16,684 bases of DNA, from assembly GCA_016793305.1 (NCBI GenBank), contig JAEUHU010000532.1:1-16684 (forward strand), given 5' to 3'. Position numbers and translations under genes: made by a program. The DNA comes from Planctomycetota bacterium (GTDB taxonomy: Bacteria > Planctomycetota > UBA1135 > UBA2386). The notes beneath the pieces are model-generated. The model did no database searches and had not been told where the DNA came from. It saw only the letters and a program-made list of their open reading frames with translations. This document shows, one piece after another, positions 3,211 to 16,684 of this stretch (position 1 is the first letter of the stretch; every line of letters begins with the position of its first letter).

Positions 3211-3217
3211 ACCGGGT

Positions 3218-4429: not shown

Positions 4430-4432
4430 CGT

Positions 4433-4448
4433 GCCGGGCCGGCCCGGC
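4433..4448. repeat. 16-bp perfect GC palindrome between the VWA and MFS genes
   Basis: GCCGGGCCGGCCCGGC is a perfect inverted repeat centred at 4440/4441. It fills most of the 24-base gap between the VWA stop and the MFS start. In the transcript it could form a stem or act as an intercistronic element that reduces translation or transcription of the downstream MFS gene. No T-run follows, so it is not a canonical intrinsic terminator. In such GC-rich DNA a short palindrome may also be accidental. Confidence 0.45.
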
Positions 4449-4453
4449 GGAAG

Positions 4454-6193
4454 CTATCGCTGCACGAACACGCCGCCGTTCTGCTCGGCGAGCCGCCGCA
4501 GCAGGTCGGCACCGTCGCCGCCCGGCTCCCCGGTGTGCACGCAGTGGATCTTGATGCGCGCATAGCGGTTCGCCTCGCGCACCATCTCCAGCAGCGTCGC
4601 GGTGTCGCGCACCGCACCCGAGGTCGGCTGGCCGTCGCTGAGCACGAACAGTTCGTCGAGGCCGCTCCTGCTGGTCTCGCCGTAGCGCTGTTCCTGCCAC
4701 TGCAGGGCCGCCTGCAGGCCGTCGTGCAGGTTGGTGCCGCCGTCGGCGGCGATGCGGCCGAGCAGCTCGGTCAGCGAACGCACGCTGCGGCCGTCGGCCT
4801 GGACCGGCTTCTGGGTCCAGCGTCGCGCCGTCTCGCTGAAGGTCAGCACCTGGTACTGCGATTCCTTCGGCATCGCCTGCACGGCCAGCACCAGCTGCTC
4901 CTTCGCCGCCTGCAGCCGCGTCACCGGCCGGCTGCTGCGGCCGGTGGTCGCCGCCGAGGCGCCGTCCATGCTGCCGCTGCTGTCGATCAGGAACGCGATC
5001 GACGAGCCGGTCACCGGGACGCCGAAGAACGTCGCCGCGGTGCCGCCTTCGGCCGGCTTCTGCAGCGTCTTCGGCACCACGATCGCGTCGCCTTCGGCGG
5101 CCCAGAACGCGCGCCACTTCTGCGGTTCCTCGGCCGGCACGAGCGCCCCGGTCAGACGCTGCAGCAGGCTGCCCAGGCGCTGCCGCAGCATCGGCGACGC
5201 GCGCTTGTTGACGGCGTCGACCAGCGCGTCGGGCCGCTGCACGACCCGTTCGAGGTGCGCGATCAGCGGCTCGATCGCAGCCCGGCACGGGCTCGCTTCG
5301 ACGAGGTCGAGCAACTCCATGTCGGTGCGCCAGCCACACTGGCCAAGGCGCTGCAGCGCCCGGCCCAGCAGGTCTTCGCGCGCCTCGTCGGTGAGCTCCT
5401 CCGGCGGGTTCTTCAGCACGTCGAGCAGCAAACGCACCTGCGCCTGCGACGCCACCGGATGGCTCTCGTCGGCGAGCACCTCCACCAGCGTCGCCACGGT
5501 CTCCAGCGACCACGGCGGCAGCAGCGATTCGGCCGCCGCGAGCCGAACGCGCGGCTCGTCGTCGCGCAGGGCGGCGAGCAGCACGCCGCGCGCCACCGGC
5601 AGGTTCTTCTTCGCCAGCGCCTGCAGCGCCGCCACGCGCCGCGCCGCACCCGGGCCGAGCGGCACCACGGCCTGGCCGGGGCCGGGCGCTGCGGCGACGA
5701 ACGCGTCGGGCGCGCGTTCGCCGGCAGCGGTGCGCATCACCACGAACCAGGCCCCCTGGTCCTCCATGCGCAGCAGGGTCAGCATGCCGAGTTCGCGGAT
5801 TTCCAGCGTCTCGAGATCGACCAGCGCGTGGTCGAAGCCGATCGCCGCGACGTCGAGCACGGCTTCGGCGAGCTCCTCGTTCGGGTTCTTCTCGGCGAAG
5901 TAGAGCAGCTTGCCGAGCATGTCCAGGTGCGTGACGCGGCCCTCTTCGCTCTCGTAGACGAGGCCCGCCTGGCGCATCGCCTCGAGGTAGCGCGGCTGCA
6001 GGTCGCGCCCGCTGCGCACCACGGCCTTCGCGCCGAGCCGGCCCTGCCGGTAGTCGGCGGCCCAGTCGCGCAGCGCGCGTGCGACCGGGGAGCCGTTCGA
6101 AGGTGGGCTCGGCACCTGGGCTGTGGCCGGGACGCCGACGAACGCCAACACGAGCGACGGCAGGGCCGCCGCCAGGGTTTTCCGGTGAGACAT
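4454..6193 (-). CDS. Secreted HEAT-repeat protein with C-terminal VWA domain
   Basis: A 579-residue predicted exported protein. Residues 1-25 form a signal peptide: basic MSHRK, a hydrophobic stretch, then a PATAQ-type cleavage region. Residues about 180-350 are helical, with recurring L-A-A-L-R-D-D-E-P-R-V-R-L-A-A-A-E-S-type units typical of HEAT/armadillo repeats. A linker containing W-R-A-F-W leads to a VWA domain from about residue 388. Its metal-ion-dependent adhesion site looks complete: D404, S406 and S408 in DSSGS, T487 in GGTN and D520 in LSDGQPT. The role is probably protein-protein interaction in the periplasm or at the cell surface; no enzymatic motif is visible. The linker plus VWA arrangement resembles many Planctomycetota proteins, and this is my main taxonomic hint. 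The start is supported by GGAG at 6200-6203, six bases before the ATG. The MFS gene follows 24 bases after its stop. The partner is unknown. Confidence 0.88.
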   Translation of the reverse strand: MSHRKTLAAALPSLVLAFVGVPATAQVPSPPSNGSPVARALRDWAADYRQGRLGAKAVVRSGRDLQPRYLEAMRQAGLVYESEEGRVTHLDMLGKLLYFAEKNPNEELAEAVLDVAAIGFDHALVDLETLEIRELGMLTLLRMEDQGAWFVVMRTAAGERAPDAFVAAAPGPGQAVVPLGPGAARRVAALQALAKKNLPVARGVLLAALRDDEPRVRLAAAESLLPPWSLETVATLVEVLADESHPVASQAQVRLLLDVLKNPPEELTDEAREDLLGRALQRLGQCGWRTDMELLDLVEASPCRAAIEPLIAHLERVVQRPDALVDAVNKRASPMLRQRLGSLLQRLTGALVPAEEPQKWRAFWAAEGDAIVVPKTLQKPAEGGTAATFFGVPVTGSSIAFLIDSSGSMDGASAATTGRSSRPVTRLQAAKEQLVLAVQAMPKESQYQVLTFSETARRWTQKPVQADGRSVRSLTELLGRIAADGGTNLHDGLQAALQWQEQRYGETSRSGLDELFVLSDGQPTSGAVRDTATLLEMVREANRYARIKIHCVHTGEPGGDGADLLRRLAEQNGGVFVQR

Positions 6194-6255
6194 CGCGATC
6201 TCCGGGGAGAGGGGTTGGCGGCAGCATAGCGAAGCAAGCCCGGCCCACGGGCTCC
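6194..6255. promoter_or_regulatory. Divergent intergenic region between the VWA and DUF3592 genes
   Basis: These 62 bases separate the divergently transcribed VWA gene (minus) and DUF3592 gene (plus), so promoters for both presumably lie in or near them. The Shine-Dalgarno of the VWA gene, GGAG on the minus strand, is at 6200-6203. I see no convincing -35/-10 pair. The assignment rests on gene orientation only. Confidence 0.35.
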
Positions 6256-6918
6256 ATGTCGGCCCCGCCGGTCGCCGATGGAGCCACCGTGGAGATCGAC
6301 TTGGACGCGATGCCAGTGCGGCTGCGAGCCCGACTGCTGCTGGCCCTTGCCCTCGGGCTGACCTTGGTCGCCGCGGGTGTGCACCACTACCTGTCGCGCC
6401 CGAACCGCTGGCCGTCGGTCCAGGGCACGGTGCTCGAGAGCCACTACCTCGACACCCGGGCCGAGCACGGTGGCCCCTACGTCCACTACGCCTACGAGGT
6501 CGACGGACGCCGCTTCACGTCGAAGCGGCTGAGCCAGTTCGTGGTGCCGAGCCGCTACAGCAGCGACCGCACGCACCCGGAGTCGGTGGTGATCCCGTTC
6601 CTCGCCGCCCACCCCGAAGGCAGCGCCATCGAAGTGCGCTACGACCCCGACGACCCGAACACCGCGGTCGTGCTGTGGACCATGAACGTGCCCGGCGCAT
6701 GGGTCGCCGCGGCGATCCTGCTGTGCCTGTGGCTCGCGACTGGCTGGGCGTGGCTCCAGCTGTGGAGTGGCGAGGCGACGCCACCCGAGGAGTCGCGCGC
6801 GCCGCAGCGAGATCCGGGCGTGGACGGCGAGCGCAGGGCGGCATCGAGCGAGGCCGCGTGCTGGCGGCAGCAGTACGTGCGCGCACCCGAGCGGATCGAC
6901 GAGCCGGCGCCACGCTGA
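6256..6918 (+). CDS. DUF3592-family two-helix membrane protein
   Basis: A 220-residue predicted membrane protein. Hydrophobic segments lie at about residues 25-43 and 148-170. Between them is a beta-rich domain that opens with WPSVQGTVLES (52-62) and closes with RYDPDDPNTAVV (128-139), the hallmark ends of the DUF3592 family. In that family the soluble domain usually lies between two transmembrane helices, as here. The C-terminal 50 residues are charged and probably disordered. The function of the family is not established. I chose ATG 6256 because the open frame further upstream overlaps the VWA gene antisense and reads like low-complexity shadow. ATG 6310 (MPVRLRARLL) is an alternative that would place basic residues directly before the first helix. 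Neither start has a strong ribosome binding site. The gene ends 61 bases from the convergent hsdM stop. Confidence 0.8.
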   Translation: MSAPPVADGATVEIDLDAMPVRLRARLLLALALGLTLVAAGVHHYLSRPNRWPSVQGTVLESHYLDTRAEHGGPYVHYAYEVDGRRFTSKRLSQFVVPSRYSSDRTHPESVVIPFLAAHPEGSAIEVRYDPDDPNTAVVLWTMNVPGAWVAAAILLCLWLATGWAWLQLWSGEATPPEESRAPQRDPGVDGERRAASSEAACWRQQYVRAPERIDEPAPR

Positions 6919-6928
6919 GCGACAGGCT
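6917..6928 (+). repeat. Left copy of a 12-bp direct repeat flanking the restriction operon
   Basis: GAGCGACAGGCT begins inside the TGA stop of the DUF3592 gene and occurs again, identical and in the same orientation, at 16203-16214. The two copies bracket the seven-gene minus-strand operon. The flanking bases differ (ct/gg here, tc/cc there), so the identity is exactly 12 bases. It could be a duplicated target or a recombination site left by acquisition of the cassette. Confidence 0.45.
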
Positions 6929-6935
6929 GGCTACG

Positions 6936-6957
6936 TGTGCGCAGGCAATCTCGCACA
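6936..6957. terminator. Weak stem-loop between the convergent DUF3592 and hsdM genes
   Basis: TGTGCG (6936-6941) and CGCACA (6952-6957) can form a 6-bp stem with a 10-base loop in the 61-base gap between two convergent genes. It has no T-tract and a large loop, so a terminator role is only suggested by position. Confidence 0.2.
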
Positions 6958-6979
6958 GGCCCCAACCCCTACCCAAAGG

Positions 6980-8503
6980 TCACAGTTCGCCCCGCCATTT
7001 CGTAGCAGCGCGAGCCTGTAGGTCCCCAAGCACGCTCTCGATCTGCTCCAGCGCCGAACGGAGATCATCGGCGATCTCCTCGGCCAGGATGTGCGGGTCG
7101 GGCAGGTTCGCCGAGTCCTCCAGGCTCTCGTCACGCAGCCAGAACAGGTCGAGGCTAACCTTGTCGCGGGCCAGGATCTCGTCGAGGGTGAACGGCCGCC
7201 AACGGCCATCCGGCTTCTTCTCCGACCAGGTCGCCTTGCGCTTCTGTCTTCCCTCAGGCTGGTAGCAGGCGACGAAGTCGTCGAGGTCGGCCCGGGTCAT
7301 GCGCTTCGTCTTCAACGTGAAGTGCACGTTGGTGCGCAGGTCGTAGACCCAGACGGTCTTGGTCCACGGCTTCTCGCTGCCGCGCTTGCGATCGAAGAAC
7401 AGCACGTTCGCCTTCACTCCCTGCGCGTAGAAGATGCCGGTCGGCAGCCGCAGCAGTGTGTGCACATCGCATTCGTGCAGCAGCTTGCGCCGCACGACTT
7501 CCCCCGCACCTCCCTCGAACAGGACGTTGTCGGGCACGACGACGGCGGCGCGGCCGTCGATCTCGAGCAACGACTTCACGTGCTGGACGAAGTTGAGCTG
7601 CTTGTTCGACGTGGTCGTCCAGAAGTCCGGCCGGTTGTAGCTGATCGACTCCTTGTCGGTGTCGCCTTCGTCGTTGACCACCGTGATGCTCGACTTCTTG
7701 CCGAACGGCGGGTTGGTCAGCACGACCTGGGCATGGTGCTTCGGCTCGTTGCGCAGCGCATCCTCGGTGACCAGAGGTGGCGCATGCTCGTCGTCGGTCG
7801 GCCCGACGCCGTGCAGCAGCAGGTTCATCGCACACAGGCGCGAGACGCCATCGACCAGTTCGACGCCGCGCAGCGCCTCGTAGCGGAGGTGCATCTTCTG
7901 GTCGCGGTCCAGCTTGTAGGTGCGCGCTAGGAAGCTGTGTGCCGCCAGCAGGAAGCCCCCGGTCCCACATGCCGGGTCGGCGACGACCTCACCAGGCCGC
8001 GGGCGCACGCATTCGACCATCGCGTCGATCAGCGGGCGCGGGGTGAAGTACTGGCCGGCACCGCCTTTCACGTCCTGCGCGTTGCGCTCGAGCAAGCCCT
8101 CGTAGGCGTCGCCCTTGACATCGGCCGCGAGGTTGAGCCAATCCTCCTTGCCGATCAGTTCGACGATCAGCTGGCGCAGCTTCGCCGGGTCTTGGATCTT
8201 GTTCTGGGCCTTGCGGAAGATCAGTCCGAGCATGCCGCCCTGGCGACCGAGCACGCCGAGGGTCTCGCGGTAGTGCTGCTCGAGATTGCTGCCCTCCATC
8301 TGCGGACTGGCGAGGTCCGACCATCGTGAGCCCTTCGGGATGGCCTGCTTCTCGCCGGTGAGCTTCTCGCGCTCGTCGGCCATCTTCAGGAACAGCAGGA
8401 AGGTCAACTGCTCCAGGTAGTCCTGGTAGCTGAGGCCGTCGTCGCGGAGGACCTGGCAGTAGCTCCAGAGCTTCTGGACGAGGCGGTTGCTGGCTTCGGT
8501 CAT
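6980..8503 (-). CDS. hsdM: Type I restriction-modification system methyltransferase subunit HsdM
   Basis: The N6-adenine methyltransferase subunit. With HsdS it methylates host DNA at the bipartite target, and with HsdR it forms the restriction complex. It is 507 residues, a normal length. An N-terminal helical HsdM_N region (about 1-135) is followed by GQYFTPR (150-156), the S-adenosylmethionine-binding motif DPACGTGGF (176-184) and the catalytic NPPFG (264-268, an N/D-P-P-Y/F motif). Nothing essential is missing. The gene is last in the operon, 75 bases after the metallopeptidase stop, and has no obvious Shine-Dalgarno upstream of the ATG at 8503. This placement is unusual: hsdM normally lies directly beside hsdS, whereas here four unrelated genes intervene. 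The N-terminus (MTEASNRLVQKLWSYCQVLRD) looks authentic for the family. Confidence 0.96.
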   Translation of the reverse strand: MTEASNRLVQKLWSYCQVLRDDGLSYQDYLEQLTFLLFLKMADEREKLTGEKQAIPKGSRWSDLASPQMEGSNLEQHYRETLGVLGRQGGMLGLIFRKAQNKIQDPAKLRQLIVELIGKEDWLNLAADVKGDAYEGLLERNAQDVKGGAGQYFTPRPLIDAMVECVRPRPGEVVADPACGTGGFLLAAHSFLARTYKLDRDQKMHLRYEALRGVELVDGVSRLCAMNLLLHGVGPTDDEHAPPLVTEDALRNEPKHHAQVVLTNPPFGKKSSITVVNDEGDTDKESISYNRPDFWTTTSNKQLNFVQHVKSLLEIDGRAAVVVPDNVLFEGGAGEVVRRKLLHECDVHTLLRLPTGIFYAQGVKANVLFFDRKRGSEKPWTKTVWVYDLRTNVHFTLKTKRMTRADLDDFVACYQPEGRQKRKATWSEKKPDGRWRPFTLDEILARDKVSLDLFWLRDESLEDSANLPDPHILAEEIADDLRSALEQIESVLGDLQARAATKWRGEL

Positions 8504-8545
8504 GGTTGGAATACGTAGGCGCGGGTCGCAGCGTGCATCAGCGCG

Positions 8546-8560
8546 CTGCTGTCGCAGCAG
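8546..8560. other. Short perfect stem-loop in the hsdM leader
   Basis: CTGCTG-TCG-CAGCAG makes a 6-bp stem with a 3-base loop in the 75-base gap between the metallopeptidase stop and the hsdM start. It is a possible RNA processing or attenuation element controlling hsdM separately from the upstream genes. It has no T-run, so it is not a classical terminator. Confidence 0.3.
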
Positions 8561-8578
8561 TAGATCGTCTCGGCCAAC

Positions 8579-9715
8579 TCAGCCGGCCTCCGCAACGACG
8601 ATCTGCTCGATGGCCGGGAGATGCTTCAGCTTCACGTCGAGGTAGCCGGCGAGGGTGCTCGCGCTGATCAGTTCGGCTTGGAAGGCCGACAGAACCAGTC
8701 GGACGAACGTCGCACCAGCCGACGAGACGAGGCGTTTCGGCAACGGCACTGGACCACCGCCCAAAGGCGCAACCGCTCCGAGTCGCTTGGAACGCCATCG
8801 CTCGTAGAAGTCCTTCGACGCCAACCCGAGCGCAACCAGCCGCCGGACCACGACCTCTTGGCTGACCCAGAACCGGCGTGAGATCCGCTGCAGCTCCGGC
8901 TCCGGCCATTCCGGCCGATACGCCACAGCCTCCTGGGCAAGGTCGTCGGCGGGCACGAGCAGTTCCGCTGCGAATCGGTTGCACCAGACCTCCTCGGCGG
9001 CCCCTTCGCCCATGTCGCACACGGCACCCTTGGGCCGCACCAGGTGGCCCAGCTCGTGCGCCAACGTGAACACGCGAGCCACCGCTGCATCGGCGCTGTT
9101 CATCGCGATCACGGGGAAGGGCTCGTACCAGCACGAGAACCCGCGGGTCTCCTCGACTGCGACACCGCTGATCTGGAAGACCAGCACCCCTTGCGCCTCG
9201 ATTCGCCGACGCCAAGCCCGGAGGGCGGCGTACTGGTCACTCCAGCTCTTTCGAACGCTCGCATCGATGCCGAGCCGGGCCCGAACCCGTTCCGCAGCAG
9301 CCTCTGGCGAACCGTTCCGCGCCACGTCGAGATCGAACCTGGGCGGCAGTTCGTGCAGCTCCGTACCAAGGTCCAAGGCGATCTCCCTTCGCGATGCCGC
9401 CCTTCGGAGTTCGACGATCAGTTCCGGCGACGGGTCGCGCGGCGAACCCAGCAGGCGGCGGAAGTCGGCCACGAGCTGCTGCTCCCGCGGCGGTTCCGGC
9501 AGAAAGAGGGCTGCCAACGGTCGTCGATACGCTGCCGCCAGCTTGCGAACCTGCGCGATCGTCGGTCGCTCCACTTGCGGCTCGTGCTCCCAGCCAGCCA
9601 GTCGCGCTGCATCGACATCGGCGGCCTGTGCCGCCTCCTCGAGGCTCATGCCGATCGACTCACGTGCCCAGAGCAGCATGCGCGGCGAGGCCAGGCCTGG
9701 GATGGACTTGCTCAC
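8579..9715 (-). CDS. XRE-type helix-turn-helix / ImmA-IrrE family zinc metallopeptidase
   Basis: A 378-residue fusion of a DNA-binding domain and a protease. Residues about 10-70 form an XRE/Cro-like helix-turn-helix (RMLLWARESIGMSLEEAAQAA, then an A-R-L-A-G-W-E-H turn and recognition region, ending with PLAALFLPE). The peptidase domain carries HELGH at 220-224, the gluzincin zinc site. It is followed by E241/E242 in a E-E-V-W-C-N-R-F-A-A-E-L-L-V-P segment, where the third zinc ligand of the ImmA/IrrE (DUF955) family is found. Family members cleave phage-type repressors or regulators on a signal (ImmA on ImmR, IrrE on DdrO), and many lie beside toxin-antitoxin or mobile genes. Here it probably senses a signal and cleaves either a regulator or the adjacent antitoxin-like protein; the substrate is an inference. 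The start codon is GTG at 9715. It lies 54 bases after the macrodomain gene and 75 before hsdM, on the same strand. Confidence 0.88.
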   Translation of the reverse strand: MSKSIPGLASPRMLLWARESIGMSLEEAAQAADVDAARLAGWEHEPQVERPTIAQVRKLAAAYRRPLAALFLPEPPREQQLVADFRRLLGSPRDPSPELIVELRRAASRREIALDLGTELHELPPRFDLDVARNGSPEAAAERVRARLGIDASVRKSWSDQYAALRAWRRRIEAQGVLVFQISGVAVEETRGFSCWYEPFPVIAMNSADAAVARVFTLAHELGHLVRPKGAVCDMGEGAAEEVWCNRFAAELLVPADDLAQEAVAYRPEWPEPELQRISRRFWVSQEVVVRRLVALGLASKDFYERWRSKRLGAVAPLGGGPVPLPKRLVSSAGATFVRLVLSAFQAELISASTLAGYLDVKLKHLPAIEQIVVAEAG

Positions 9716-9769
9716 GGGGTTCGCCAGTGGGTGGCTGGACGTCTTGTTCTACCACGCTCGACTACGGCG

Positions 9770-10240
9770 TCAGCGTGCGCGGTTCCCTTCAGCTGGAACG
9801 TAGAGCCGCACGTCGACCTCCGGCAGCGGTGCAAACGCCGCCTCGATCCGCGGTCGCACTTCCCGCCACTCCAGCCCGCCGAGGCCGCAGCCGAGTGCGG
9901 GCACGGCGAGCGACCGGATGCGTCGCTCACGGATCTCGACGACCAGACTCTGCAAACCGGCCTCGATGTCCTCGATGCGCGAGCCGTCGCGCCAGTGCTG
10001 CTTGGTCGGGAAGTTGACGAGGAACCGCGGGTTCTGGAGAAGGCCGGTAGCGAACACGAACATCGCGCCGGTGTGCACCTCGCCTGCCTTGCACGCCTTG
10101 GCGTAGGCTCTGAAGTTTACTGGGAACCGCTCCTTGAACTGGAGGGCGATGCCCTTGCCCATAACGCCGACACAGTTGACGGCGTTGACGAGGGCCTCGA
10201 CGTCGGCGTCGAGCAGGTTGCCGCTGGCGAGGGTGATCAA
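9770..10240 (-). CDS. Stand-alone DarG-like macrodomain (ADP-ribosyl hydrolase) protein
   Basis: A 156-residue single macrodomain. It shows the ADP-ribose-binding features GNLL (7-10), VNAVNCVGVMGKGIALQF (18-35), NFPTKQHW (76-83) and the C-terminal loop PALGCGLGGL (114-123). This is the ALC1-like subgroup containing DarG, which removes ADP-ribose from thymidine bases in DNA placed there by DarT. K80 in the NFPTK motif falls at the position I recall as catalytic in Thermus DarG. DarG normally has a C-terminal DarT-binding domain and sits beside darT. Here the protein ends after the macrodomain and no DarT-like gene is visible. The start appears to be TTG at 10240, which overlaps the stop of a 10-codon open frame (10237-10269). 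A weak GAGG lies at 10245-10248. Activity on DNA rather than protein or RNA adducts is inferred from the subfamily. Confidence 0.88.
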   Translation of the reverse strand: MITLASGNLLDADVEALVNAVNCVGVMGKGIALQFKERFPVNFRAYAKACKAGEVHTGAMFVFATGLLQNPRFLVNFPTKQHWRDGSRIEDIEAGLQSLVVEIRERRIRSLAVPALGCGLGGLEWREVRPRIEAAFAPLPEVDVRLYVPAEGNRAR

Positions 10241-10269
10241 GCCGCCTCGTGGTTGCTGGCTTCGATCAT
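10237..10269 (-). CDS. Possible 10-codon coupling ORF between the PIN and macrodomain genes
   Basis: The sequence ATG ATC GAA GCC AGC AAC CAC GAG GCG GCT TGA encodes MIEASNHEAA. Its ATG overlaps the TGA of the PIN gene (ATGA) and its TGA overlaps the TTG start of the macrodomain gene (TTGA). A ribosome finishing the PIN gene could reinitiate here and be delivered onto the weak TTG start. It may equally be accidental; nothing else supports its translation. Confidence 0.25.
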   Translation of the reverse strand: MIEASNHEAA

Positions 10270-10682
10270 GGGGACGAGTCAGGGGCGTGCGTGATCACCT
10301 GGAGCCGAGGGATGCCGACGAAGTGGCGCGAGTTGTGAGTTACGAGCGGCAGGTTGTGGCGCAAGGCGCATGCTGCGATCCACCAGTCCCCTCGGTCCTT
10401 CTGGTCGCGCCCAGTCTGGCGTTGATGAGCGGCCACTTCCGCCCATCGCGATGCCGTCTCGCTATCGAACCCCAGGATCGTGTAGCCGAGCATGGCCTGC
10501 TCCAGGGAGTCGCGGCGCTTCTGGCCCCACGAGTGCTCGATCGCCCACAGACGAAGCTCGGCCACGCTTATGAAGGCAAGGCACAATCGCTTGCCGAGCA
10601 AGTCTTGCGCGTAGAAGTCCCGCCGCGAGTCCCGTTTGAACAGGAACGAGAAGATGTTCGTGTCGACGAGTAGCGCGGTCAT
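10266..10682 (-). CDS. VapC-like PIN-domain ribonuclease (probable toxin)
   Basis: A 138-residue single PIN domain. The acidic metal-binding residues are in place: D7 in LLVDTNIFSFLF, E42 in SVAELRLWA and D99 in RGDWWIAACA, with THNSRHF (115-121) supplying the last motif. Such proteins are Mg2+-dependent ribonucleases that act on tRNA, rRNA or mRNA as VapC toxins. The start ATG overlaps the stop of the upstream gene by four bases (ATGA), the tight antitoxin-then-toxin order usual for vapBC. Its partner is expected to be the upstream 308-residue protein, whose C-terminus resembles a VapB tail. The family call is strong; the RNA target is unknown. Confidence 0.9.
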   Translation of the reverse strand: MTALLVDTNIFSFLFKRDSRRDFYAQDLLGKRLCLAFISVAELRLWAIEHSWGQKRRDSLEQAMLGYTILGFDSETASRWAEVAAHQRQTGRDQKDRGDWWIAACALRHNLPLVTHNSRHFVGIPRLQVITHAPDSSP

Positions 10683-11605
10683 CCGCCACGCACCTCGCGC
10701 AGCATGTTCAGGAAGTCGTCGACAGACTCGTCTTCCGGCCAGTCGCCGGCGAGGGCGTCGAGGTTCGTCACCGGCACGACTCCCTGCCTGCGAGCCAGTT
10801 CGTCGACGCTCAGGTTCTCCCAGAAGCCACCGAATCGCGGATCAGGCATCCCGACGCTGACCTGAGCTGGCACGACGTTGGTAACCGTGGCGCGGATCGC
10901 GCGACCGCTCAGGCGCTCGATGCGGCCGGTCACGCGAACGCGCTGCCGACGCAGTTCCGTGACGGGCTCGTCCAGTCCCTCGGGCAGGATAAGTGCCACC
11001 CGGTTGCCGTCGACCTCGTCCAGTTGTGCGGTGCGCTGCTTCCAGTCGCACTCCCAAAGCACGCCCTCGATCTCCCCTTCGGCAACCTGCGGCTGACCAA
11101 CGTTGGTACCACGCAGGTTCTGACGGAAGGTCCTGGTCAGCCGCGCCGACCGTCTCCGCTCGCCGTCGAGAAGGGTGATGCTGATCGCATCGACCCCCTC
11201 ACCCAACGGCTTGGCGAGAGTCTCCCAGCCGTCGACAACGCCAGCTTGAAGGCCCGCATCCCAGCCGGCGGCTCCCGACTCGACCTTCTGCATGGCGTCG
11301 AGCATCTCCTCGGCGACTCGAACGCCTGGGTCCCCGTGCAGGGTGTCGCGGTCGCGTTGGCCCGCATACTCGAACGTGAGTACGGCACTGCCTTTGGCGA
11401 AGGCCGTGAGGTCGAGCGCGCAGGTCTGCTCGATGCCCGTCGGGAACCGGCCACCGCCTCGGCGGTGCGAGGCGAGCATGCGGCGCAGAGACAGCTGCAG
11501 CTCCTTGGCGACGGCCGTCAAGGTGTCGACGCTGATCCGGCCGGGAACAGCAGGCCCTTCCAGGCGCATCTCGATCTTGGGTGGTTCGGGTGTCGGCTTG
11601 GTCAC
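10679..11605 (-). CDS. 308-residue protein of unknown function with a VapB-like C-terminal antitoxin tail
   Basis: I do not recognise the first ~250 residues. Residues 11-170 are mixed alpha/beta, with an S-V-D-T-L-T-A-V-A-K-E-L helix and a D-L-T-A-F-A-K-G-S-A-V-L-T-F-E strand pair. Residues about 176-245 (from EGEIEGVLWECD to VRVTGRIERLSG and beyond) look like a small beta barrel, possibly OB- or SH3-like. Residues 261-308 contain LSVDELARRQGVVPV, then L-A-G-D-W-P-E-D-E-S-V-D-D-F-L and a basic end. This matches short VapB-type antitoxins that wrap around PIN toxins. With the PIN gene starting inside its stop codon, it is probably that toxin's antitoxin, fused to a large extra domain. The GTG start at 11605 is fixed by a strong GGAGGT six bases upstream. 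The gene begins 3 bases after hsdS. An unusually long antitoxin might sense HsdS/HsdR status, DNA or a ligand; that part is speculation. Confidence 0.75.
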   Translation of the reverse strand: MTKPTPEPPKIEMRLEGPAVPGRISVDTLTAVAKELQLSLRRMLASHRRGGGRFPTGIEQTCALDLTAFAKGSAVLTFEYAGQRDRDTLHGDPGVRVAEEMLDAMQKVESGAAGWDAGLQAGVVDGWETLAKPLGEGVDAISITLLDGERRRSARLTRTFRQNLRGTNVGQPQVAEGEIEGVLWECDWKQRTAQLDEVDGNRVALILPEGLDEPVTELRRQRVRVTGRIERLSGRAIRATVTNVVPAQVSVGMPDPRFGGFWENLSVDELARRQGVVPVTNLDALAGDWPEDESVDDFLNMLREVRGG

Positions 11606-11608
11606 GGC

Positions 11609-11616
11609 TCACCTCC
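11609..11616 (-). promoter_or_regulatory. Shine-Dalgarno overlapping the hsdS stop, for the antitoxin-like gene
   Basis: On the minus strand GGAGGTGA includes the hsdS stop codon TGA (11609-11611). It lies six bases, counted from GGAGG, before the GTG at 11605. It is the best ribosome binding site in the operon and settles the GTG start. It suggests that the antitoxin-like protein is made efficiently and is coupled to hsdS termination. Confidence 0.75.
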
Positions 11617-13183
11617 GGACGGAAGGTTTGGTCGGAGCGGAAGGGCGCATCGTAGCGGGATTCACGACCAACGCCGTCGTTGGAGCGGCCCCTGGGGGTT
11701 GATCGACAAGTCGGCCCTCGAAGGCCCACTTGAGGATGGACTGGCGCAGGCGCTGCACCCGCCGCCTGCCGTGTGCTGCGGAGCCATGCAGGTTTGCCAT
11801 TCCAGACAGCATGCGATCGAGCTCGCTCCTGACACGCAGCTGCTCAGCTTCTGGAGGGACCGGAACCGGGAGGCTAGCGATCTTCGAGAGGCTGAGCGTG
11901 TGCAAGCCCGACGTCGAACTTGCTGCGCGTTCGATGTGGCCTCGGCCGCTCGTAGAGAGCATCCAGGTCAATGACCACTTCGGCAGGGTGGCGCCGGCAA
12001 AGCGGACCTTGATGATGTGGTTCTGGTGTACGCATCCGGGGACGCTGCCGTTCCAGAGGGCGACACGGCCGATCTGGTCGACGCTGCCGTTGCCCTCCAC
12101 GACGAGAAGGTCGTCGGCCAGAAGCTCGGCGCGCTCGGCTTCATCCTCCGTGACTCCGATGCGCTTGATCTCGTCCAAGCGAAGTTCATCGGCGTAGACG
12201 TTGGCAACGCGAAGGTAGGGCCGCTGCTTTGCGAGCTTCTCCCTCTGGGCATTCTTGGTGAGGCCACCGGAGATGATGCCAAGTTGGTCCATGCTGGCCC
12301 AGCACCAGCCCTCGGGCAGCTCGGGTAGGTCAGTCGTGTCCGGCGCGGCGGGTTCTTCGTACTTCGCCTTCCAGCGGTCGTCGGTCGGCGGCTTGCCCTT
12401 GGCCTTCAGCTTGGTGAGTTCGGCTTCTTCCCAGCGGCGGCGGCGCTCGGCGAGGATGCGCTTCAGCAGGACGGAGGCGGGTTCGTAGCTGCGGCCTTCC
12501 TTCTTCGCGAGTTCGGCTTCGGTCGGGACGAGGCGACCTTCGACGGCGGCCTTGAGCACGGAGGCGCGGTAGCGCTCGAGGTTGCGCTGCACGCGCTCCA
12601 GGGTCGCGGTCGCGGCGTCGAGGCGGGAGAAGTGGGCGTCGATCGCGGCGACGACTTGGCGCTGCTCTTGCAGTGGCGCAACGGTTGTCGGGAGCTTCTT
12701 GAAGCGATCGTGTGTGAGGTTGAGACCACTGTCGCTGATGCCTGTCTTCATGGCATCGATCGCCATCTGCGCAGCCTGAGACAGAAGCTGTGCCTCCAAG
12801 AAGCGCGGGTCCATGACGTCCGGCCGAGCACGAAACCGGTACATCTTCCCGGACAGGATGAGTCTCGGCCGCGTCTCGCGAACCAAGCACGGCACGCCAC
12901 ATCGAACTCTTGGTCCAGCGCACGTCAGGAGGATGTCGCCCGCTCTCACCTCAAGTTGCGGCCGAGGCTTCAGATTGTCGGGTAGCTGCTTGTTGTGCTC
13001 CGGCAGGAATCGGCCTGGCTGAATCGCCGTTGTCTTGAGCACGCCCCAGGCGTCGCTGGTAAGCGAGGGTTCCTTGAGGCACTGCGGACTCCAGCCATGG
13101 TGCAGCACGCGGCCGTCATCCAACGGTGCGAGCACCTTGTCGATCGTCGTGCGGGTCCAACCCTGAGGAATCTCTTCTGTCAT
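11609..13183 (-). CDS. hsdS: Type I restriction-modification specificity subunit HsdS
   Basis: The DNA-recognition subunit that sets the bipartite target for both methylation and cleavage. It is 524 residues with the standard two-half architecture. Target-recognition domain 1 spans about residues 5-165. A conserved helical spacer (about 168-260) begins with APLQEQRQVVAAIDAHFSRL and leads to VLKAAVEGRLVP. Target-recognition domain 2 spans about 288-440, opening with LPEGWCWASMDQL. A second helical repeat (about 440-500) has PPEAEQLRVRSELDRML and ILKWAFEGRLV. A Pro/Thr/Ala-rich tail of about 25 residues follows. The ATG overlaps the hsdR stop by four bases (ATGA), so the two are translationally coupled. 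Specificity domains vary greatly, so the recognised sequence cannot be read from the protein. Confidence 0.95.
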   Translation of the reverse strand: MTEEIPQGWTRTTIDKVLAPLDDGRVLHHGWSPQCLKEPSLTSDAWGVLKTTAIQPGRFLPEHNKQLPDNLKPRPQLEVRAGDILLTCAGPRVRCGVPCLVRETRPRLILSGKMYRFRARPDVMDPRFLEAQLLSQAAQMAIDAMKTGISDSGLNLTHDRFKKLPTTVAPLQEQRQVVAAIDAHFSRLDAATATLERVQRNLERYRASVLKAAVEGRLVPTEAELAKKEGRSYEPASVLLKRILAERRRRWEEAELTKLKAKGKPPTDDRWKAKYEEPAAPDTTDLPELPEGWCWASMDQLGIISGGLTKNAQREKLAKQRPYLRVANVYADELRLDEIKRIGVTEDEAERAELLADDLLVVEGNGSVDQIGRVALWNGSVPGCVHQNHIIKVRFAGATLPKWSLTWMLSTSGRGHIERAASSTSGLHTLSLSKIASLPVPVPPEAEQLRVRSELDRMLSGMANLHGSAAHGRRRVQRLRQSILKWAFEGRLVDQPPGAAPTTALVVNPATMRPSAPTKPSVRR

Positions 13184-16023
13184 GCCGCCAGCACCTCGTT
13201 CACCTCACGCAGCACGTCCGCCAGCTTCCCTCCGAACACCAGCTGCGCCCGCCCGAGCCCACCCTCCTGCACGAACGGCACCCCGTCGAAGTCGTCGATC
13301 GTGATCTCGACACTCGTCGCCACCTGCTCGCGGATCATCTCCAGCCACTTGACCTGCTCCGACGTGAACCGTCCACCCTGCTTCTCGAGCCATGACGCGA
13401 ACCGCGCCTGCACGGTCTCCGCGAACGGCACCAGTTCGTTGTCCTGCTTCAGCGCGTAGCGCACCAGCGACACCACGTCGACGAGCATGCGCCGCGCCGA
13501 GGCCCCGCGCACCCGATCGCGCGCCAGGATCTCGTAGGCGCGCCACAGCTGTTCCTGCGAGCAGCCGACCGGCGCTTCACCCAGCGCTGCGGCCAGCGCC
13601 TTGATGTCGTCGTAGCGCAGCCGGCGCCGATGCGGGACCGAGTAGAAGAACTGCAGCGCCGCCATCTCGTCCTTCTTGTCGGCGACGAACTGCTCGAACC
13701 GCTGCACCAGGGCCTGCGCCTTCTGCTTGGCTTCGGGGGAGAAGCCGGCCTCCAGCAGTTCGTCGCGGCTGACCGGGTCGATCACCTGGTCGCATTCCTG
13801 CCGCACGGTGACCAGCACGTCGCACAGCGTCGGGTTGTCGACCAACGGCTGGACGGAGGCGGCGACCAGCTCGGCCTTCGCAGCCGCGAGCTGGGCCGCG
13901 TCGGGGACCGTGGCCGGATCGAGCTGGAAGCGCTGTCGGGCTGCGGCCTCCTGCGCGTCGGTGTCTAGCGCCTGCACGAGCCCGTGGCTGATCGACGCCA
14001 GCGTCAGCCCGCCGGACGCACGCAGCAACCGATCCTGCTGCGCCGCCGAGCATCCGCGATCGAGCCGCGTCAGCCGCGAGACCAGGGAACTCAGGCAGGC
14101 GTCGTCGGCACCGCCCTCCCGAACCCGATCCAACAGCGTGCGCAGCGGCACCCCTGGCTGCTGCTCGAGAGGCTGAGATTCGGCGACCCACTTCTGCTCC
14201 GTGACCCCGATGCAGTCCACCACCACGAAGTGCGTCTTCTTCACCGGCTCGCCCGCGATGTGCTCCATCGTCGTCGGCGGACAAACCCGCACGCCGCGCC
14301 CCTTCATCTGCTCGAACAGCAGTCGGCTCTTGACCATGCGCAAGAACACGACCACCTCGACCGGCTTGATGTCGGTGCCCGTCGCGATCATGTCGACCGT
14401 GACGGCCATGCGCGGCAGGAAGTCGTTGCGGAAGGCGGCGATCAGGTCCTCCGCGCGATCGCCGTCGACCTTGTAGGTGATCTTCCGGCAGAAGTCGTTG
14501 CCGCGGCCGAACTCCTCGCGGATCACGGCGGTCACGTCTTCGGCGTGGCTGTCGTCCTTGCAGAAGAACAGCGTCTTCGGCACCTCCTTGCGGCCTGGGA
14601 AGATCTCGGAAGACAGCTTCTCGCGCAGCGTGCGGATCACCGTGCGCAGCTGGTCGCGAGCGACGACGGCCCGATCGAGGTCGCCTGCCGTGTAGGTGAT
14701 CGGCTGGTCCGGGGCCTCCCACCGAAGCTTGCGGGTACGGCGGTCGCGCAGGCCGAGCACCCGTTCGCCAGTGGCGGCGATCGACGCGCCCTGCTCGGTG
14801 ATCTTGGTGCGGATCCGGTAGACGTCGAAGCCGACGTTGACTCCGTCGGCGACCGCGTCGTCGTGGCCGTACTCGATGACGACGTTCTGGTCGAAGAACG
14901 CGTAGGTGTGGGCCGCGGGAGTCGCGGTCAGCCCGATCAGGAACGCGTCGAAGTACTCCAGCACCTGACGCCACTTCGAGTAGATCGAGCGATGGCATTC
15001 GTCGACGAAGATCACGTCGAAGTACTCGGGCGGGATCGCGCGGCAGTATTGAACCTCGGCCGGCTCGCGCCCGTCGTCGGCGTCGAGCAACGACGTCGCC
15101 TCTTCCGACTCGGCGAAGTCGGAACGCCCCTGCAGCATCGAGTAGAGCCGCTGGATGGTCGTGATGACCACCTTGGTCGACGCCCCGATCACGTTGCTCT
15201 GCAGGTGCTGCGTGACGTAGAGCTCCGGGAAGCGGCGGTTGTCGTCGGGGGTGACGTAGGCGCTGAACTCGTTGTCGAACGCCTGCTTGCCCAGGTTGCT
15301 GCGATCGACCAGGAACAGCACGCGCCGAGCCCCGCCGAACTTGATCAAGCGGTAGATGGAGGTGACCGCGGTGAACGTCTTGCCCGACCCCGTCGCCATC
15401 TGCACGAGCGCTCGCGGCCGGTTCTCGCGCAGCGAGCGTTCGAGGTTGGCGATGGCCCGCACCTGCACCGGGTAGAGACCCTTCGTCGCCAGGTCCGGCA
15501 TCGCCCGGAGTCTGGCCCGCAGCGTCGAAGGCAGGGAGGCCTCCGCCGCGGTGTGGGCCCCAGTTCGCTCCACCCACTGCTGTAGGGAGTCGGAGGCGAG
15601 CCACTCGGCCAGCGTCTCCGGCTGGTGGACGGCGAAGACCTCGCGGCTGACTGGGTACGGGTCGAGACCGTTCGCGAACAGGGTCTCACTGCCGTTGCTG
15701 AGGTAGACGAACGGCAGCGGGCGCACCGGAGCGGTGACACCAGCCGGCAGCCCGCTCGCGTAGTCACCGGCCTGCCATTCGTGGGCGCGTAGGGGCTCAC
15801 CGGCCCGCTTGGCCTCGAGCACCCCGACCGCTCGCCCATCGACGAACAGCAGGTAGTCGGCGACGCCATGGCCGGACGCCATCTCGAACTCGCGCACGGC
15901 GACGCCCCGCCCAGCAGCGAGGTCGACCTGGGACCGGTTCTGCACCAACCAACCCGCGGCCAGCAGATTCGCGTCGATCGTCTGGCGAGCTTGCTGCTCT
16001 GGGGTGAAGCCGGAGGAGGACAT
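13180..16023 (-). CDS. hsdR: Type I restriction endonuclease subunit HsdR (EcoEI-like)
   Basis: The motor and nuclease subunit: it translocates DNA with ATP and cuts unmethylated DNA far from the target. It is 947 residues. The N-terminal PD-(D/E)xK nuclease shows D56 in GHGVADYLLF and E70-x-K72 in GVLEAK. The SF2 helicase core has Walker A MATGSGKT (209-216), Walker B DECH (341-344), motif III LTATP (365-369) and motif VI QMKGRGVRV (572-580). The C-terminal ~120 residues, including the GGLGRAQLVFGGKL segment, match the EcoEI-type C-terminal domain that contacts the methyltransferase core. All catalytic residues are present, so it should be active. It is first in the operon, about 300 bases downstream of the tmRNA gene on the same strand. 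The start is ATG 16023; the preceding sequence has no clear Shine-Dalgarno, but the N-terminus fits the family. Confidence 0.96.
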   Translation of the reverse strand: MSSSGFTPEQQARQTIDANLLAAGWLVQNRSQVDLAAGRGVAVREFEMASGHGVADYLLFVDGRAVGVLEAKRAGEPLRAHEWQAGDYASGLPAGVTAPVRPLPFVYLSNGSETLFANGLDPYPVSREVFAVHQPETLAEWLASDSLQQWVERTGAHTAAEASLPSTLRARLRAMPDLATKGLYPVQVRAIANLERSLRENRPRALVQMATGSGKTFTAVTSIYRLIKFGGARRVLFLVDRSNLGKQAFDNEFSAYVTPDDNRRFPELYVTQHLQSNVIGASTKVVITTIQRLYSMLQGRSDFAESEEATSLLDADDGREPAEVQYCRAIPPEYFDVIFVDECHRSIYSKWRQVLEYFDAFLIGLTATPAAHTYAFFDQNVVIEYGHDDAVADGVNVGFDVYRIRTKITEQGASIAATGERVLGLRDRRTRKLRWEAPDQPITYTAGDLDRAVVARDQLRTVIRTLREKLSSEIFPGRKEVPKTLFFCKDDSHAEDVTAVIREEFGRGNDFCRKITYKVDGDRAEDLIAAFRNDFLPRMAVTVDMIATGTDIKPVEVVVFLRMVKSRLLFEQMKGRGVRVCPPTTMEHIAGEPVKKTHFVVVDCIGVTEQKWVAESQPLEQQPGVPLRTLLDRVREGGADDACLSSLVSRLTRLDRGCSAAQQDRLLRASGGLTLASISHGLVQALDTDAQEAAARQRFQLDPATVPDAAQLAAAKAELVAASVQPLVDNPTLCDVLVTVRQECDQVIDPVSRDELLEAGFSPEAKQKAQALVQRFEQFVADKKDEMAALQFFYSVPHRRRLRYDDIKALAAALGEAPVGCSQEQLWRAYEILARDRVRGASARRMLVDVVSLVRYALKQDNELVPFAETVQARFASWLEKQGGRFTSEQVKWLEMIREQVATSVEITIDDFDGVPFVQEGGLGRAQLVFGGKLADVLREVNEVLAA

Positions 16024-16202
16024 GGAGGGCGGTTGGTCCCCACCGAGCGGCCAGCGGCACCAGTGACCACGGTGGATCCCGAGCCCCGATCATGCCGCGC
16101 CGATTCTGCGCGAACCACCATCAGCCATGGAGTTGCAGCCACCTAGCAGCTGCACCGGCGCGGCTGCTGGCTCACTCCGATCGCCGTATTGGGAACAGCA
16201 TC

Positions 16203-16214
16203 GAGCGACAGGCT
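16203..16214 (+). repeat. Right copy of the 12-bp direct repeat flanking the restriction operon
   Basis: GAGCGACAGGCT is identical to 6917-6928 and in the same orientation. It lies between the hsdR start and the ssrA 3' end and abuts a perfect stem-loop (16214-16230). Together the copies delimit about 9.3 kb that contains only the restriction operon. Confidence 0.45.
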
Positions 16215-16230
16215 CCCCGACTCTCGGGGA
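16214..16230. repeat. Perfect 7-bp stem-loop beside the direct repeat
   Basis: TCCCCGA-CTC-TCGGGGA forms a 7-bp stem with a 3-base loop. It begins at the last base of the right direct repeat and is one of a series of hairpins downstream of ssrA. Confidence 0.5.
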
Positions 16231-16239
16231 ATCGCCGCT

Positions 16240-16270
16240 TGCCACCGCCCGCCGAAGGCGGGCCGTGGCA
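16240..16270. repeat. Long stem-loop downstream of ssrA
   Basis: TGCCAC / GTGGCA (6 bp) and GCCCGCC / GGCGGGC (7 bp) stack around a single C-C mismatch with a 3-base loop, giving a very stable 31-base hairpin. It may help end ssrA transcription or be a REP-like repeat. No T-run follows on either strand. Confidence 0.55.
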
Positions 16271-16293
16271 ATGCCCGATGCCGGGCGTCGACG

Positions 16294-16326
16294 CCACCCT
16301 TCCCGCGCTTGCGCGGGGAAGGGTGG
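16294..16326 (-). terminator. 15-bp stem-loop immediately after, and overlapping, the tmRNA 3' CCA
   Basis: CCACCCTTCCC-GCGC pairs with GCGC-GGGAAGGGTGG around a TT loop with one bulged G (16315). In the minus-strand transcript it starts at the encoded CCA of tmRNA, so the precursor would fold the mature end into this stem. It is the strongest candidate for an ssrA terminator or 3' processing signal. The missing U-tract argues against a classical intrinsic terminator. Confidence 0.5.
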
Positions 16327-16676
16327 TGGAGGCGGCGGGAATCGAACCCGCGTCCCGAGATGCTCCGTCCTGGGCCTCTACGCGCGTAGTCCGTCGTTTG
16401 GTGTCGCCAGCGCCGCTCCGACGAACAGGATCGGCACTGGCCAGCTCGACTGTGTCTCGTCGTGGATGGGCCGAGCAGCCACCACACGACCAGCCTGCTG
16501 TGTTGCGCCTCGTACCCCCGCAGGCGAGGGGTCCTCGGCGTCACTACCTAGTTCTTAGGCAGCGAGGGAGTAGTGCGTGTTGGCACTTGGTTGGTTCCAG
16601 TCGGATTTACGAGGTGCCTGGCCCTCGGCGCGCCACACCAGGTCGAGTCGGCATCCGGTCGAAGCCGATCGCCCCC
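16324..16676 (-). ncRNA. ssrA: Transfer-messenger RNA (tmRNA, SsrA), one-piece
   Basis: tmRNA rescues stalled ribosomes: it enters as an alanyl-tRNA mimic with SmpB and then supplies a short reading frame that tags the peptide for proteolysis. The 3' end shows a T-arm, GCGGG-TTCGATT-CCCGC, followed by CGCCTCC-A-CCA, so CCA is encoded. The 5' end GGGGGCG (16670-16676) pairs with CGCCTCC in a 7-bp acceptor stem with one G-U pair, and is followed by ATCGGCTTCGACCGG, typical of tmRNA 5' ends. The deduced length of 353 bases is normal for one-piece tmRNA. The internal tag frame is at 16555-16584. The promoter lies beyond the window. The gene was found from its tRNA-like ends, and both boundaries follow from the acceptor pairing. 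Confidence 0.95.
16555..16584 (-). other. tmRNA tag-peptide reading frame (ANTHYSLAA, stop)
   Basis: Inside ssrA the codons GCC AAC ACG CAC TAC TCC CTC GCT GCC TAA encode ANTHYSLAA. The ending L-A-A is the conserved ClpXP/ClpAP degron seen in tags such as E. coli ANDENYALAA. GCC is assigned as the resume codon because it is preceded by AAGT, resembling the UAGUC-GCA setting in E. coli, and because the frame closes with TAA. The alanine charged on tmRNA would precede the tag. Confidence 0.88.
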
Positions 16677-16684
16677 GTCGTGAC

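Follow-up and report, generated by a model that had tools for sequence, protein, structure and literature searches.

The window analysed here is a 16,684-nucleotide stretch from a Planctomycetota bacterium (contig JAEUHU010000532.1 of assembly GCA_016793305.1, positions 1 to 16,684 of the forward strand), and our subject is a type I restriction operon in which four accessory genes lie between hsdS and hsdM. On the minus strand, from 16023 to 6980, seven genes follow one another in the order hsdR, hsdS, a gene for a 308-aa protein, a PIN toxin gene, a DarG-type macrodomain gene, an XRE-ImmA gene and hsdM; all seven open reading frames (ORFs) are open and lie where a preliminary description of the sequence had placed them. 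hsdR (13180..16023; this and all features below are on the minus strand) encodes a 947-aa EcoAI/EcoEI-like restriction subunit with PF04851 (ResIII), PF08463 (EcoEI_R_C) and PF04313 matches; its score against NCBIfam NF046051 (208 bits) falls under the cut-off of 550. hsdS (11609..13183; 524 aa) is recognized as a specificity subunit by PADLOC Specificity_I (E 6e-101) and matches Pfam Methylase_S only below cut-off. hsdM (6980..8503; 507 aa) encodes the N6-adenine methyltransferase subunit, with matches to PF02384 (N6_Mtase, E 4e-63), PF12161 and PADLOC MTase_I (E 6e-194). HsdR, HsdM and HsdS are thus encoded together, each with its own domains, by open, full-length genes, and judged by gene content the window holds a complete type I restriction operon of R-S-M order beside the transfer-messenger RNA (tmRNA) gene ssrA (16324..16676; Rfam RF00023, 166.8 bits), which lies just upstream of hsdR.

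The genes from hsdR through PIN are closely packed, as the preliminary description had noted. Read directly, hsdR and hsdS overlap by ATGA, hsdS and the 308-aa gene (10679..11605) are 3 bp apart and the latter overlaps the PIN gene (10266..10682) by a further ATGA. Gaps calculated from ORF ends are 25 bp between PIN and the macrodomain gene (9770..10240), 54 bp between the macrodomain and XRE-ImmA genes (8579..9715) and 75 bp, the largest in the operon, between XRE-ImmA and hsdM. The distance from hsdS to hsdM is 3.1 kb. Absent from the preliminary description were the tmRNA gene and two minicistrons, one just after PIN and one ahead of hsdM, which are described below. The earlier statement that toxin–antitoxin (TA)-type genes split hsdS from hsdM in a co-directional block therefore holds: the accessory genes run in the same direction as the hsd genes on either side, with overlapping or very short joints, as in other operons with embedded TA or defense genes.

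The gene identities proposed earlier are borne out by profile matches for six of the seven genes. The exception is the 308-aa protein, for which we find no Pfam match at E ≤ 1 and no NCBIfam match at E ≤ 0.1. Comparison with relatives (28 were recovered) and structural models suggest an alpha/beta N-terminal part, an OB-fold-like middle (residues ~172–246) and a C-terminal tail that we take to be VapB-like. The family is homologous over its full length to a second antitoxin family, X316/X322 (probability 97.9, E 4e-13). Foldseek returned no PDB match at E ≤ 0.001 for either model, and a known fold for the whole antitoxin was not found; the VIA-align rows fall mostly on antitoxin residues 187–269 and barely cover the N-terminal part. 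Two predicted viral proteins, one with DUF6575 and one from Leptospira phage LE1, match the antitoxin model over ~300 columns (E ~5e-5) with a high root-mean-square deviation and provide a lead only. We rejected the PADLOC candidate PDC-M32A as the identity of the 308-aa protein, because the match is weak (E 1e-5; 3e-10 for P0025) and four tested X322-type members do not match it; the name was not found in our literature search. No relative of the 308 family was found in viral contigs or plasmids. The X322 member P0234 has none in plasmids or phages and the X322 alignment has none in viral contigs, the phage search having been made with the X322 member only and not with the 308 family.

The partner of the 308-aa protein is better defined. 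The 138-aa PIN protein matches PF01850 (E 6e-13), and residues D7, E42 and D99 are invariant across seven aligned sequences, as expected for an acidic active site; what we take to be the usual fourth acidic position of PIN domains reads N117. In all 16 loci whose antitoxin gene is full length, PIN-coding DNA directly follows it (the window, L001–L003, L025, L026, L067, L074 and L129–L136, where L numbers denote loci and G numbers, below, genomes). Three of these loci (L001, L131 and L133) have a damaged or short PIN, and for L136 the evidence of PIN comes solely from tblastn. At L137, where the antitoxin gene is partial, no PIN was seen. Like VapBC and other PIN-containing type II TA systems, the window has a small PIN gene overlapped by an upstream gene whose product has a VapB-like end, but VapBC antitoxins are short DNA-binding proteins, whereas the putative antitoxin here is ~310 aa long with an OB-like domain. 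Since this protein does not belong to a known VapB family in Pfam or NCBIfam, we do not file the pair as VapBC, only as working like VapBC. The 308-aa gene and PIN most likely constitute an autonomous type II TA pair, an ordinary TA module on the evidence of gene pairing and homology.

Two loci show the C-terminal tail in other settings. L138, a degraded hsd locus, has an isolated 71-aa ORF (8170–8385) that ends in the tail motif of the 308 family (IFGRWPGTESDEEVAAALEDMS), as though the tail could serve as an antitoxin module in its own right. L029 (4068–7225, genome G153) contains the C-terminal fragment of a DarT and a complete DarG of 346 aa, then a 330-aa ORF and directly thereafter an hsdM fragment; the last ~50 residues of the 330-aa ORF are the 308-family tail, fused to a different N-terminal part. 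The ingredients of L029 resemble those of the window in a different arrangement.

Relatives in which the restriction genes have collapsed around the pair bear directly on how PIN is restrained. L002 (on a 192-kb contig) and L003 have the MFS–VWA flank and the tmRNA gene in common with the window, and the tmRNAs beside the pair are 89% and 87% identical to that of the window. In L002 the order is tmRNA, 53 bp of the hsdR start (83% identical), the hsdS tail, an intact 308-type gene (92% amino acid identity to the window), an intact PIN gene (96%) and the first 39 bp of hsdM (90%), followed by a stop. Nonsynonymous (dN) and synonymous (dS) divergence between the window and L002 (NG86) are 0.045 and 0.351 for the antitoxin gene and 0.019 and 0.245 for PIN. 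In L001, a different part of hsdR (163 bp, 79%) is joined to the hsdS tail and followed by the antitoxin gene (95% amino acid identity), a PIN gene that lacks its C-terminal end and a few hsdM-start codons. In L003, the pair stands alone beside the tmRNA gene. Because the hsdR/hsdS breakpoints differ between L001 and L002, we count these as two separate collapses. With the hsd genes reduced to scars while the antitoxin gene is kept in both loci, and PIN intact in L002, the 308-type antitoxin is probably sufficient to restrain PIN or, at the least, PIN can probably be restrained without the Hsd proteins of this operon. These loci argue against the earlier idea of Hsd control over PIN. N6_Mtase matches number four in G002, six in G003 and zero in G001.

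Other properties of the flanks can be noted here. The block of tmRNA and operon is inverted in the window relative to L002 and L003 (window 6076–3254 and 16682–16324 compared). An integration element using ssrA was considered but is not claimed: the last 24 tmRNA bases occur once only in each of the window, L002 and L003 (≤5 mismatches), and none of the seven operon genes encodes an integrase. Flanking DNA of the window is 70% and 67% identical to two Planctomycetota metagenome-assembled genomes, which fits a most likely origin in an uncultured member of that phylum, and G+C is ~0.65–0.69 across the operon versus 0.70–0.73 in the left flank. ARAGORN also calls a tRNA-Cys within the VWA gene (5563–5655) and an odd second tmRNA overlapping the real one (15999–16416); neither appears in the Rfam gathering list, and both calls are probably false.

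The region between PIN and hsdM carries a different history. A 21-bp sequence around the hsdM start is present twice in the window, 1766 bp apart and with 20/21 positions identical. Copy 2 (8485..8505) is at the hsdM start itself, and copy 1 (10251..10271), on the PIN side, follows PIN at the position occupied by the hsdM start in L001 and L002. Copy 1 now takes the form of a 10-codon minicistron (MIEASNHEAA*, 10237..10269), a relic of the hsdM start that was read directly and overlaps the PIN stop by ATGA and the macrodomain gene start by TTGA. Another repeat, of 19 bp and 95% identity, is present in the same region at unrelated places, so it is the position of the 21-bp repeat and not its length that carries the argument. 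Neither the macrodomain nor the XRE-ImmA gene has a relative in L001–L003. Together with the location of copy 1, this absence indicates that the ancestral order was most likely hsdR-hsdS-308-PIN-hsdM, and that the macrodomain and XRE-ImmA genes most likely entered later, separating hsdM from PIN.

Both inserted genes resemble antitoxins that have parted from their toxins. The 156-aa macrodomain protein matches PF01661 and passes the cut-off of 250 for NCBIfam NF048014 (DarG) with 255.3 bits, its residues 2–152 aligning with model positions 1–151 of 338, which places it in the DarG type. K80, which we take to be the catalytic lysine of DarG, is present. As compared with DarTG, however, the window has no DarT gene beside the macrodomain gene, whose neighbors are PIN and XRE-ImmA, and the protein has no DarG C-terminal half. 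We considered that it might be a truncated DarG, but among 8000 scored candidates, restricted to proteins 0.55–1.75 times its length, 7699 match (E ≤ 1e-20); the five nearest (87–97% identical) are 156–190 aa long, and the 97% identical relative has exactly 156 aa. The stand-alone form is common, so short length cannot be taken as proof of decay.

The 378-aa XRE-ImmA product matches PF06114 (Peptidase_M78), PF01381 and PADLOC RmrA (E 9e-26), with an HELGH motif at residue 220. In RosmerTA, or ImmA (D25), systems, antitoxins with an ImmA domain occur with a variety of toxins, some of them PIN-like (PMC10440598). Relatives of the window protein were found as 42 matches in 39 of 392 genomes (E ≤ 1e-15). 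Thirty of the 42 were examined, and 27 have an ImmA frame readable by motif (L086, L103 and L113 do not). The next gene, judged by eye, is DUF4411/PIN-like in 24 of these 27 loci, and three of three tested are PF14367; the exceptions are L088, where it is broken, L093, which reaches the contig end, and L091 (the L065 hsd locus), where DUF4062 follows. In the window this place is taken by a frame of 25 codons, LAETIYCCDSSALMHAATRAYVFQP (8500..8577), whose stop overlaps the hsdM start by ATGA. The frame aligns with the N-terminus of the relatives' toxins (11 used) with a score of 54, as against a maximum of 39 from shuffling (0/2000 reach 54) and ≤19 for the other five frames. Thus, by homology and context, the window XRE-ImmA protein is an orphan RmrA-type antitoxin of a RosmerTA system: an ImmA-domain antitoxin is present, and instead of an intact adjacent toxin there is the stub of its own DUF4411 toxin gene. 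Because it comes from another TA family with a toxin partner of its own, action on the 308/PIN pair is unsupported. We favor the view that the macrodomain and XRE-ImmA proteins are both orphan antitoxins, which may still give protection from DarT- or DUF4411-type toxins.

Two questions that arise from this organization are (i) whether the hsdS–hsdM junction receives cargo in other operons and (ii) whether the 308/PIN pair recurs there. A search for hsdM relatives gave 12 of 154 genomes from the order (E ≤ 1e-60) and 32 of 392 from the phylum (E ≤ 1e-120). Forty neighborhoods were fetched, and in 27 of these hsdS precedes hsdM on one strand (hsdS is degraded in a few, such as L024, L077 and L083); the remainder are cut by contig ends, degraded or without a visible hsdS. 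In 9 of the 27 junctions the two genes lie within ~210 bp with no accessory gene, and in 18 they are separated by at least 0.9 kb, mostly by variable genes, although in one of these wide gaps (L084) no ORF of 60 aa was picked. The preliminary description had allowed that homologous loci consistently lacking accessory genes would count against it, and on that point the picture is mixed. Cargo identified by Pfam includes Zeta toxin, SIR2_2 and DUF3800 (L064), DndB and RhuM (L066), AAA_21 with DUF4276, the latter below cut-off (L024), AAA_21 with Fic-like_C (L057), a weak HigB-like match with HTH-ImmA (L072), SLFN_AlbA_2 (L071), a helicase (L069) and Y1_Tnp (L075). A reverse transcriptase gene (L062) and ImmA, DUF4062 and SLFN_AlbA_2 (L065) lie upstream of hsdM on two contigs where no hsdS was found. 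On the strength of these comparisons, the hsdS–hsdM junction is an exchangeable cargo site.

Several individual junctions deserve mention. L020 has the closest hsdM relative (88–89%); between its hsdS and hsdM is a single 580-aa gene (9129–10871) that has no Pfam match and runs into the hsdM start. The reverse transcriptase gene of L062 (5190–6713, 507 aa) ends 7 bp ahead of the hsdM match. The gap of L064 (oriented 5142–11892) spans 6.8 kb with SIR2-like, DUF3800, Zeta-toxin and other genes and has its own hsdM-start relic near 7870. Y1/REP-type transposase-like ORFs lie between hsdS and hsdM in six related operons (L075–L077, L079, L080 and L083; L075 by Pfam and the rest by eye), and are a possible source of rearrangements at this gap.

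For the second question, an X308-like gene with PIN lies between hsdS and hsdM in 3 of the 27 junctions (L026, L067 and L074). L025 is a fourth operon with the pair, in which only a likely hsdS tail remains, at the contig end. These four are divergent planctomycete operons, and related pairs at the same junction in such operons make the arrangement more than chance. There are also eight stand-alone pairs (L129–L136), where PIN-coding DNA again comes right behind the antitoxin gene and the fetched stretch shows no window-like hsd genes. No new pair locus was found in the orders of G278 (two genomes) or G437 (five genomes), or in the G002 order rescanned with the X322 profile (154 genomes). In the hsdM tree of 33 rows, from which L023, L024, L027–L029, L031, L082 and L083 were omitted as partial or broken, the five pair-bearing loci including the window need at least four changes, a weak test in that shuffled labels give values as low in 88 of 500 cases. 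The antitoxin tree has 28 rows, P0028 forming one long branch; here, with collapsed L001 and L002 counted as hsdS–hsdM loci, junction and stand-alone loci interleave with at least four changes, which is again a weak test (76/500). We use the trees for nothing more than the conclusion that, as reconstructed here, single origin and vertical descent are not enough for the distribution of the pair.

The hsdM-start relic of the window is also not isolated. For 23 gaps (the 18 wide ones, L025, L062, L065, L068 and the window), we aligned the gap with the first ~150 bases of the hsdM gene from that locus, using 30 plain shuffles each. Inner relics are evident in three: L066 (score 192 over 145 columns from the start codon on; shuffle maximum 26), L064 (53 over 43 columns; 27) and the window (37 over 21 columns; 28). 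In L066 the relic, which includes a stop, separates the second cargo ORF from the third. In the other 20 gaps there is no match of the own hsdM start clearly over the 30 shuffles; we left out L057, whose match (30 versus 26) lies away from the start codon. Most likely, then, at least three operons received cargo that now separates an older hsdM start from a newer one. As two other operons have an inner relic, additions at this point look recurrent, and the relics look like marks of serial cargo additions.

We consider it likely that these observations reflect an R-S-M operon with an exchangeable cargo junction, an autonomous 308/PIN pair, a later addition of the macrodomain and XRE-ImmA genes, and restraint of PIN that is independent of Hsd. 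The resident cargo would consist of a PIN ribonuclease toxin and, holding it in check, an antitoxin of ~310 aa that combines an OB-like domain with a VapB-like tail. The second cargo would have been added later at the hsdM start, leaving the 21-bp repeat, the hsdM-start relic and the stub of the ImmA toxin. The overlapping minicistrons may couple translation of the macrodomain gene and hsdM to the genes upstream. The pair would ride in, and be expressed with, the restriction operon, serving its own maintenance and perhaps growth arrest in infection, and the antitoxin of the pair, instead of Hsd proteins, would neutralize PIN.

The preliminary description had instead suggested a composite device in which failed or inhibited restriction, for example through a phage anti-restriction protein, could release PIN. 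Spelled out as a guard model, an intact restriction complex or transcript keeps PIN inactive, and phage anti-restriction or cleavage of the antitoxin by ImmA sets it free. A precedent for such a device is PrrC, an RNase-type toxin embedded in the type IC locus ecoprrI and active when the enzyme is inhibited (PMC12707154), and immune proteins have been hypothesized to restrain toxins in immunity operons more generally (PMC3506569). The co-directional, overlapping genes of the window and the repeated placement of the pair at the hsdS–hsdM junction speak for such coupling. However, PrrC is held by the Hsd complex, whereas PIN has its own antitoxin, the two are paired at the eight stand-alone loci as well, and both are kept in L002 where the hsd genes have been deleted, although the four other N6_Mtase matches of G002 should be borne in mind. 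A role for ImmA as the sensor that releases PIN is likewise unsupported, since its TA family is a different one, its own toxin has been lost, it has no relative in L001–L003 and it most likely arrived with the macrodomain gene after the pair. We regard this device as quite unlikely. A pair that addicts the cell to the whole restriction operon, in the manner of a plasmid addiction module, would explain the mid-operon placement, because large operon deletions would take the antitoxin too. Yet the operon was lost around the pair in L001, L002 and perhaps L003, so that the pair saved itself and not the operon, and experiments on the pneumococcal tvr locus gave no evidence for addiction by its embedded Phd-Doc homologues, though they did not rule it out (PMC6265443). 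Addiction to the operon thus also appears unlikely.

An alternative that we hold to be possible, though not the favored one, is that recombination between conserved hsd genes swaps hsdS together with its neighbors, and that the cargo has no tie to restriction and persists since TA pairs resist deletion. This overlaps our preferred explanation of a cargo junction with a self-sufficient pair and differs mainly in denying any benefit. It accommodates the very mixed cargo (Zeta toxin, SIR2-like, RhuM, AAA_21, HigB-like and Y1 transposase), the several gains or losses on the hsdM tree and the inner hsdM-start relics, and a hotspot has also been suggested for an hsdS–hsdR gap elsewhere (PMC12255303). 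On the other hand, much of the tested cargo is defense- or TA-like and not random, and the start–stop overlaps suggest co-expression. A bolder extension of the cargo-junction explanation, which we find doubtful as a whole, treats the hsdM start as a capture site at which cargo is acquired serially by copying of the hsdM 5′ end. Each addition would leave an hsdM-start relic between older cargo on the hsdS side and newer cargo on the hsdM side, and the operon would record the arrival order of its TA and defense genes. In the same proposal, antitoxins with a predicted OB fold, being near single-strand DNA-binding proteins, may have been kept for reading DNA products of restriction or infection and then releasing the toxin.

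TA and defense genes in type I operons are already known and the window is not categorically new. The RptR-RMS-DarTG2-M48 island of enteropathogenic Escherichia coli, which is active against phage, likewise embeds a TA pair in a type I operon, but there DarTG2 occupies the hsdS–hsdR gap, described as a potential recombination hotspot, and the repressor RptR leads the operon (PMC12255303); the window has another antitoxin/PIN pair in the hsdS–hsdM gap, R-S-M order and a macrodomain without DarT. Campylobacter jejuni hsd loci have rlo genes in the hsdR–hsdS gap and, as in the window, variable genes (mlo) in the hsdS–hsdM gap; the excerpted account describes no TA pair of the 308/PIN family (PMC5183652, citing Miller et al. 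2005). In the tvr locus, a TA-like pair, TvrAT (a Phd-Doc homologue), also lies inside a type I locus, but it represses the recombinase that shuffles hsdS, whereas the window's pair belongs to another TA family and its seven genes include no recombinase (PMC6265443). RosmerTA is represented in the window's relatives by an XRE-ImmA antitoxin beside a PIN-like (DUF4411) toxin, of which the window retains 25 codons. A literature search of titles and abstract beginnings, with subscription papers largely outside its reach, returned no PIN pair of the 308 family in an hsd operon.

An operon that carries its own antitoxin, and hsd genes that were deleted around the pair at least twice, make the question of who restrains the toxin testable with two genes, and the L001 and L002 collapses offer a useful natural experiment. 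The loci point to a TA family with a large, OB-like antitoxin that lacks a Pfam or NCBIfam match. They also show what appear to be orphan antitoxins collecting in one operon with their scars still readable, the hsdM start serving as a recurrent insertion mark. The hsdS–hsdM gap of these operons may therefore be a practical hunting ground for further defense genes and for the route by which they are captured.

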